Shown one piece after another: positions 439 through 41,189 of a stretch of 64,000 nucleotides of DNA (its first letter is position 1; each line of letters opens with the position of its first letter). The stretch comes from an uncultured Bacteroidales bacterium. GTDB taxonomy: Bacteria > Bacteroidota > Bacteroidia > Bacteroidales > UBA4417. The DNA is taken from positions 30,760 to 94,759 of the forward strand of contig CAIRMR010000204.1 of the NCBI GenBank assembly GCA_903879715.1, in the 5' to 3' direction. Under the pieces are notes generated by a model. It saw nothing but the letters and a program-made list of their open reading frames with translations, had not been told where the DNA came from and made no database searches. Made by a program: the position numbers and the translations under genes.

Positions 439-1941
439 ATGAAAACGAAAATACTATCTCTCTTAATGATTATCGGACTGCTGGTCAGTTCGTGCGACCT
501 GAATGAAGAACCTTACGGGTTTTACTCCGAAGATAACTTTTATAAAACACCTGCTGATGCCGAGGCTTCGTTACTATATGCATACAACGCGCTTACCTTT
601 CTCGAATATTCGAGAGGCATTTTCTACATTGGCGAACTTGCATCCGAAACCTGCGATGTTAAAGCTGATGAAGGATATGGAGCGCAGCAACTGAACAACT
701 GGACTGCGGATGCCACGAATGAATCTCTTACCTATTATTTTAAATACTGTTACATTGCTATAAACCGGGCAAATGCAATAATTGAAAATGTTTCCAACAG
801 TTCCTTCAGCCCTGCAGTAAAAAACAAACTGCTTGGGGAAGCCTATTTCTTAAGGGCTTTCAATTATTATAATCTTGTGAAGGTATTCGGACTGGTTCCT
901 ATTCAGCGTAAGATGGTGAAAAGCATCTCAGACGCCTCACCCAATATGGCTATGAATCTCGATGAGTTGTATGATTTCATCAATGCCGATTTAAGAACAG
1001 CTGAATCCTTTCTGGAAGTGTACCGCAATGCAGGCCGCGCCGACAAAGTAGCTGCCCAGGCGCTCCTGGCCAAAACGTATTTGACAATAGCTTCTTCGAA
1101 AGAAAGCGGTGTGCCGAAATATACCGATATGGCAAAGGATGTACAAATGATGTACGACAGTGCAGCCTATTTTTCAGGCAAAGTTCTTCACGATCAGGCT
1201 GAGTACTCGATAGATCCGCAATTAACTCATATTTATGATGTTAATGCTTCAAACGGACCTGAGCATATTTTTATCATGTCGATGGACAGGACCGGGCTCA
1301 ACGAAGGAAATTTTTCAAAAATAGCAATGATGTTTCACCCCTGGGTTGACGGAGTTCCTTATTACATCAAGAATCCTGATGGTACACTTACATATACTAC
1401 CAATGGGTGGGAAGTTTATCAAACTACAGCTGCATTTTATAACTCTTTTGCCGCAAACGATAAACGCAAAACAGAACTCCTGGTAACAAAAATATATAAC
1501 GCATCCGGAGTACAAACCGGCGCCCTTGGCACAAATTTTTCTTATGCTTTTACCCGGAAATATGTGGATCCTGACTTTGTAGGAGATAAATCAAGTGCCA
1601 AACCTTACCTAATCCGGTTTTCGGATGTAGCACTGATTTATGCGGAAGCTAGCGGCCCCACTGCAGATGGCTACAACTGGGTTAACCAGATCCGAAGCAG
1701 GTCTAATCTTCAGGCAATGGTTCCCGGATTGAATGCAGCCGACTTCCGAAAAGCGGTAGTGCAGGAAAGGGCCTGGGAACTTGCATTTGAAGGTCATAGG
1801 TTATATGATTTAAGAAGAAAGGCCATGGTTACATCAACCGATCCAAGAGCTGCTGCTTCCGGAATCACAGAGGAACAGGCTGCGTTTTATCCTATCCCTC
1901 AGATGGAAATTGACTTAAATCCGAATTTAACAGCAAAGTAA
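439..1941 (+). CDS. SusD/RagB-family nutrient-binding outer membrane lipoprotein
   Basis: Lipoprotein signal (LLVSSCD); SusD hallmarks AEAYFLRAFNYYNLVKVFG-like and VVQERAWELAFEGHRLYDLRR. Confidence 0.95.
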   Translation: MKTKILSLLMIIGLLVSSCDLNEEPYGFYSEDNFYKTPADAEASLLYAYNALTFLEYSRGIFYIGELASETCDVKADEGYGAQQLNNWTADATNESLTYYFKYCYIAINRANAIIENVSNSSFSPAVKNKLLGEAYFLRAFNYYNLVKVFGLVPIQRKMVKSISDASPNMAMNLDELYDFINADLRTAESFLEVYRNAGRADKVAAQALLAKTYLTIASSKESGVPKYTDMAKDVQMMYDSAAYFSGKVLHDQAEYSIDPQLTHIYDVNASNGPEHIFIMSMDRTGLNEGNFSKIAMMFHPWVDGVPYYIKNPDGTLTYTTNGWEVYQTTAAFYNSFAANDKRKTELLVTKIYNASGVQTGALGTNFSYAFTRKYVDPDFVGDKSSAKPYLIRFSDVALIYAEASGPTADGYNWVNQIRSRSNLQAMVPGLNAADFRKAVVQERAWELAFEGHRLYDLRRKAMVTSTDPRAAASGITEEQAAFYPIPQMEIDLNPNLTAK

Positions 1942-40970: not shown

Positions 40971-41022
40971 AAAATTTATTTTTTAAAGTAAAACATTACA
41001 TCAACCGTTCACACAGGGCAAT

Positions 41023-41049
41023 AAAAAAGGCCTTCCTGTAAGGAAAGCC
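41023..41049 (-). terminator. Intrinsic terminator in the asnB 5' leader (proposed attenuator 3:4 hairpin)
   Basis: GGCTTTCC-TTACA-GGAAGGCC-TTTTTT on minus strand. Confidence 0.85.
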
Positions 41050-41081
41050 ACTTATGATTTTTCAAACACAATACAGCTTTC

Positions 41082-41132
41082 CTAATCCGCCAGGGGATTA
41101 TAATTATTGAAAAGTGTATTATGATTTAACAT
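41082..41132 (-). CDS. Putative Asn-rich leader peptide MLNHNTLFNNYNPLAD* of asnB
   Basis: ATG TTA AAT CAT AAT ACA CTT TTC AAT AAT TAT AAT CCC CTG GCG GAT TAG; five Asn codons of 16; lies between a promoter-like element and a terminator. Confidence 0.7.
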   Translation of the reverse strand: MLNHNTLFNNYNPLAD

Positions 41133-41155
41133 TTTGCCTGTATTAGTTTGTGGCA

Positions 41156-41189
41156 CAAAGATAATAAGAAATGATTATATACTGACAAA
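41156..41189 (-). promoter_or_regulatory. Bacteroidetes-type promoter for asnB leader (-33 TTTG, -7 TATCTTTG)
   Basis: TTTG (41189-41186) then 22 nt then TATCTTTG (41163-41156), matching TAnnTTTG. Confidence 0.6.

Follow-up and report, generated by a model that had tools for sequence, protein, structure and literature searches.

Asparagine-rich leader peptides with switchable terminators upstream of asnB and asnA: candidate ribosome-mediated attenuators in Bacteroidota

On the minus strand of the window, the 64,000-nucleotide stretch of Bacteroidales DNA analyzed here, a tiny Asn-rich open reading frame (ORF) and a switchable terminator are located between a LytTR response-regulator gene and asnB (Table 1), which raises the question whether a ribosome translating this ORF decides on the transcription of asnB. 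Ribosome-mediated attenuation is a textbook kind of regulation, and an initial annotation of the locus had proposed attenuation of the trp/his type. At the sequence level the comparative tests described below support this proposal, and we regard it as very probable that the asnB leader functions as a transcription attenuator of the trp/his type, operated by the ribosome and sensing charged Asn-tRNA.

Table 1 Features of the asnB leader region in the window.
Feature	Position	Strand	Remarks
LytTR response-regulator gene	41930-41220	-	upstream neighbour on the same strand; ends ~90 nt ahead of the leader
TTTG, possible -33 element	41189-41186	-	22 nt ahead of the -7 box; spacing varies in some relatives
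TATCTTTG, Bacteroidota -7 box (TAnnTTTG)	41163-41156	-	23 nt upstream of the leader ATG
Leader peptide ORF MLNHNTLFNNYNPLAD*, 16 codons	41132-41082	-	Asn at codons 3, 5, 9, 10 and 12
Segment 1 (codons 4-8)	41121-41109	-	partner: segment 2 RNA, 41081-41069; from RNAalifold consensus and pair counts
Inner hairpin of 1:2, TAATCC/GGATTA	41100-41083	-	compensatory change T-A to C-G in G010
Segment 2, antiterminator 5' arm AGGAAAGC	41083-41076	-	starts inside the leader stop codon
Antiterminator inner stem-loop TTGTG/CATAA	41071-41052	-	41071-41067 pairs with 41056-41052
Segment 3 GGCTTTCCT	41049-41041	-	common to antiterminator and terminator
Intrinsic terminator 3:4, GGCTTTCC-TTACA-GGAAGGCC-TTTTTT	41049-41023	-	stem of only 8-9 bp; six T
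asnB, glutamine-hydrolysing asparagine synthase, 555 aa	40970-39303	-	controlled gene; NCBIfam and Pfam

The promoter, the ORF and an RNA capable of forming either 1:2 together with 3:4 or 2:3 are seen in the sequence itself. As outlined in Table 1, the Asn-rich frame was confirmed by sequence and translation, the two promoter-like boxes and every arm of the pairings 1:2, 2:3 and 3:4 were found where the initial annotation had placed them, and the intrinsic terminator with its T run is likewise present. The upstream TTTG agrees with the Bacteroidota promoter consensus. Stem 1:2 is real but longer than had been described, with codons 4-8 pairing with the RNA down to 41069, and the distance between the T run of the terminator and the asnB ATG was measured as 52 nt instead of 53 nt. 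The proposal that region 2 begins at the leader stop codon was borne out by the start of the antiterminator 5' arm. The leader of the window is a single attenuator, not a tandem.

From these elements we infer the movement of the ribosome, the termination and the response to asparagine as follows. If Asn-tRNA is charged, the ribosome would proceed to the stop codon and cover segment 2, 3:4 would form and transcription would end near 41023; the RNA from 12 nt past the stop folds as the terminator. If Asn-tRNA is scarce, the ribosome would stall at Asn 9-12 with its leading edge just short of segment 2, whereupon 2:3 would form ahead of the synthesis of segment 4 and RNA polymerase would enter asnB. 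With a ribosome placed at Asn 9-12, the RNA left free as far as segment 3 adopts the antiterminator fold (-15.4 kcal/mol). An untranslated leader would form 1:2, again resulting in termination. The genome encodes an AsnRS (TIGR00457, 630.8 bits), so that charging of Asn-tRNA can report free asparagine; no convincing Asn leader was found at the asnS gene of this genome.

The folding energy of the leader amounts to -37.3 kcal/mol compared to -23.2 +/- 3.3 kcal/mol for dinucleotide shuffles (z -4.25), and none of 200 shuffles was as low. Pairing to the terminator arm as good as that of the native post-stop region was obtained in 0 of 2000 shuffles. Furthermore, when the two strands of the window were scanned for a promoter followed by a short ORF and a terminator, the asnB leader ORF was the only one returned. 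The product of asnB was identified as asparagine synthase B (NF006949, 934.7 bits; cut-off 499); the genome also encodes two distant AsnB-like ORFs with 38-39% identity. At gathering scores no Rfam family matched within the window, including Trp_leader, His_leader and the other leader families as well as the T-box model. Consequently, the asnB leader would work like the Trp_leader and His_leader families without being a member of either by sequence. A plasmid search with the asnB leader gave no match.

This AsnB was found in 10 of the 16 genomes of the family, all of them belonging to one genus. Eight of nine same-genus asnB upstream regions examined carry an Asn-rich ORF followed by a terminator, encoding the peptides MLNHNTLFNNYNPLAD, MLNHNTLFNTNNPLAD, MFNTNTLFNNYNPLKD, MFTTTNSAFNYNPQAD, MFSPNTLFNNNNPVPD, MAQNFNTVFNNNNPFPD, MFTYNTFSNNYNPVPG and MYNTNTLFNNYNPLAD; the ninth (L092), whose AsnB is 80% identical, is devoid of this combination. 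Three genomes of a second family of the same order carry MYLLNNNNLFNYNPFQW (two) and MFILNNFNLLINNNPFER (one), which completes a set of asnB leaders from 11 genomes and two families, i.e. the window genome and ten further ones. The combination of Asn-rich ORF and terminator is absent upstream of about 146 further asnB genes of Bacteroidota, which together with L092 indicates that the leader is lineage-specific at asnB. The initial annotation had named homologous leaders without a short ORF or without Asn codons as evidence against its own reading; the leaders of the 11 genomes keep the short Asn-rich frame, as had been anticipated for an alignment of homologous leaders. A sequence model of the leader gave one strong match in its own genome (E 4.6e-31, the next being 0.03) and, throughout the family, one strong match per leader-bearing genome, located at asnB.

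The asnB leader peptides comprise 16 to 18 residues with 3-6 Asn each, encoded in total by 48 AAT and 8 AAC codons. Despite their differing sequences the last Asn codon is separated from the stop by exactly four codons in all 11 leaders. A TAnnTTTG box lies 20-33 nt upstream of the leader ATG in every case, and the T run ends 48-52 nt upstream of asnB in most leaders and 216 nt upstream in one. In L087 (genome G004) leader and terminator are intact, and the extra sequence that separates them from asnB comprises about 164 nt and includes a short CTTCGGACTTCCG repeat.

With respect to the stems, the segment 3 core GGCTTTCC, which has to pair with both segments 2 and 4, is retained in 11 of 11 asnB leaders. 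In segments 2 and 4 most substitutions preserve pairing, many of them via G-U, in line with the compensation that the initial annotation had expected. The RNAalifold consensus consists of stems 1:2 and 3:4, for which 94.2% of the cells are paired and 6 both-side changes were counted compared to 1.9 in shuffles; for terminator 3:4 all stem cells are paired in the 11 sequences and the T run is kept. For the antiterminator 2:3 with its inner stem, 92.3% of the cells are paired compared to 33-57% when slid, with 6 both-side changes against 1.6 in shuffles. These both-side changes mostly represent a single contrast between the two families, to which G010 (inner hairpin of 1:2) is added, so that independent compensations are few. 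Complementarity of 2:3 exceeded that of shuffles in all eight same-genus leaders; in the second family the 2:3 pairing is partly G-U and no better than shuffles. The inner stem of the antiterminator is identical in most same-genus genomes, and in the second family it has substituted pairing-compatible bases. The stretch 41052-41076 (TGTATTGTGTTTGAAAAATCATA) between segments 2 and 3 is near-identical in eight same-genus genomes with divergent flanks, and the inner stem accounts for only part of this conservation. A separate motif before segment 3 (~TTTGnAAAATATA), seemingly common to attenuators of different amino acids, was considered and dropped, since most of it coincides, in the asnB leaders, with the loop and 3' arm of the inner stem, a stem kept by pairing-compatible changes.

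In analogy to asnB, 118 asnA upstream regions were surveyed for short ORFs that contain 4 or more Asn within 12 residues and are directly followed by a terminator. The initial annotation did not extend to asnA in 13 families, to tandem copies or to the leaders that this genome has for other amino acids. The genome itself is devoid of asnA, which occurs in 112 of the 295 genomes of the order. Asn-rich ORF and terminator were found together at 20 of the 118 loci, representing 13 families according to the family labels of the genome set. Seven of these loci (L222, L265, L285, L304, L305, L323 and L336) carry tandem Asn attenuators; in L265, for example, MTTLQNNLFNNNSNNNLLRIGKAIV and a terminator are followed by MQKINLNNNNP and a further terminator. 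In the tandems the first leader often contains NNNLLR.GK and the second NNNN.PP close to the stop. A terminator lies behind 27 of 30 Asn-rich ORFs at asnA compared to 22 of 110 ORFs in which another residue is enriched (p = 2e-12), and behind 10 of 14 compared to 11 of 172 at asnB (p = 3e-8), both p-values being indicative, because related genomes were counted as independent and thresholds were set during the analysis. In the reverse-strand control a terminator was found behind 0 of 1 and 1 of 3 ORFs. The codon enrichment in terminator-linked leaders is specific to Asn. Taking asnB and asnA together, the same predicted attenuator design occurs in about 15 families of Bacteroidota, and at asnA it is often tandem.

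For 38 asnA and asnB leaders we determined how far the stretch pairing best with the terminator's 5' arm lies from the last Asn codon within the densest run. This distance amounts to 9-19 nt in 37 of the 38 leaders with a median of 13 nt, and a ribosome with a codon in its A site covers roughly that many nucleotides downstream. Since this spacing corresponds to the leading edge of the ribosome, a stall at the last Asn codon would leave the antiterminator arm just free. Besides the Asn run and its spacing the 38 leader peptides share little. No other sequence evidence bears as directly on the proposed attenuation mechanism as this spacing. Of the 38 Asn leaders 24 have a promoter box in front, compared to 43 of 618 background ORFs. 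The second leader of each of the seven tandems has no such box, as expected if one transcript spans both.

The same arrangement could originate from an ordinary terminator of the LytTR gene, which ends on the same strand shortly before the leader, combined with an ORF arising by chance in A+T-rich DNA. Asn codons are A+T-rich, so that base composition helps to produce Asn runs, which counts against the attenuator reading, and 38 of 158 asnB upstream regions contain some terminator-like hairpin. However, a promoter box separates the leader from the gene on the LytTR side in 11 of 11 genomes, on which ground the terminator of that gene was rejected. Recurrence at asnA in 13 families, which is found neither for other residues nor on the reverse strand, and the 2:3 complementarity of the eight same-genus leaders are likewise at odds with chance; a chance ORF was rejected on the amino-acid and reverse-strand controls. 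Altogether we regard this explanation as extremely improbable.

It is also very improbable that the leader acts via translation, by sequestering and freeing the start of asnB, or via Rho instead of intrinsic termination. Translational attenuation by leader peptides is known and the terminator stem is short. Nevertheless, every asnB leader retains the stem and the T run, and at its distance from asnB the terminator leaves the start of the gene unmasked. As to the cause of the stall, Pro-rich nascent chains can stall ribosomes, and Pro codons follow the Asn run (NP, NCPP, NPPP in many) in 11 of 11 asnB leaders and several asnA leaders, so that the nascent peptide or the Pro codons might act in place of uncharged Asn-tRNA. 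We give this little credence: many promoter-proximal asnA leaders contain no Pro (e.g. NNNLLRIGKAIV) whereas Asn is found in all, and the CCN codons provide a C-rich partner for the G-rich segment 2, so that Pro can be accounted for without any stalling. Attenuation by a ribosome waiting for charged Asn-tRNA hence stays the preferred reading.

Leaders for other amino acids, each with a terminator behind, were observed in the same genome for hisG (L155, His leader MNFNQLHHHHLHTISGME), trpE (L156, Trp leader MRTQSANMNWWHFTTNVVDS) and ilvD (L160, reverse strand, Ile/Leu/Val leader MSVIFSNSIISLLLLVLWKIQVG). Furthermore, a metY-cysK-metX-like operon (L237:5380-5750) is preceded by the Met/Cys-rich MYIKASVILNASNNAMMCCCMCV and MAFQTSITNPLFHMCMCCCMILRMRNG in series with terminators; the ilvD and met/cys gene names are our reading of the protein sequences. 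Ribosome-mediated attenuation therefore seems to be a general feature of this genome. A structured model of the Asn leader, applied to 395 genomes of the class, found besides its own asnB only two leaders, both in other families: the His leader MKMNNTMKHHHQFAGRKL at a HisG-like gene (L203:1500-1610) and MKQVQNILIQIISVVIIGHERV at a branched-chain-aminotransferase-like gene (L204, ~1500-1610, reverse strand). The predicted attenuator architecture is thus common to leaders for different amino acids, which suggests that the His, Trp, Ile/Leu/Val and Met/Cys operons of Bacteroidota are controlled likewise.

We consider it rather probable that asparagine supply in Bacteroidota is widely under hitherto undescribed Asn-leader attenuators at asnB or asnA, often doubled in series, within a toolkit comprising His, Trp, Ile/Leu/Val and tandem Met/Cys leaders. 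Asparagine would then join the amino acids sensed via leader-peptide attenuation, with one logic applied to two unrelated asparagine synthetases (AsnA and AsnB) in about 15 families. Bacteroidota mostly initiate translation without Shine-Dalgarno pairing. If the proposed mechanism is true, it implies close coupling of transcription and translation in this phylum, and because attenuation requires a ribosome pacing RNA polymerase, the Asn leaders make this coupling directly testable. The tandem asnA leaders provide a natural test of how two identical switches in series act on a response.

Among known systems, the trp and his leaders of enterobacteria resemble the Asn leader in their short ORF rich in codons for the product, in the 1:2, 2:3 and 3:4 pairings and in a terminator before the first gene. 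In contrast to them, the Asn leader would sense asparagine, guards asnB or asnA, carries a Bacteroidota promoter and matches no Rfam family. Asn-specific T-boxes of Firmicutes respond to the charging of Asn-tRNA and regulate asparagine genes via antitermination; they bind the tRNA directly without a leader peptide, whereas the Asn leader uses a peptide ORF. Outside Proteobacteria the same logic occurs for other amino acids: Actinobacteria and Firmicutes have candidate leader peptides (PMC1262725, PMC2965389), and Staphylococcus aureus has a leucine-rich leader attenuator at ilv (PMC5794164); the passages concerned name neither an Asn leader nor Bacteroidota. Within the same phylum, attenuation before amino-acid operons was inferred from transcript maps: clues to leader-peptide attenuation are mentioned in general terms for Flavobacterium psychrophilum (PMC9723704), and Bacteroides thetaiotaomicron has leader-like sORFs (PMC7366714); neither main text names an asparagine leader. 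Two leader ORFs in series, as in the seven asnA loci, are present in Salmonella mgtCBR (PMC3641672), where they respond to different signals, whereas the asnA pairs repeat one amino acid. Neither an Asn-specific leader attenuator, of which the initial annotation had known no described case in Bacteroidetes, nor a tandem asnA form was found in the open-access literature searched. Within this literature, what is new is the asparagine specificity and the tandem asnA variant of a known mechanism.
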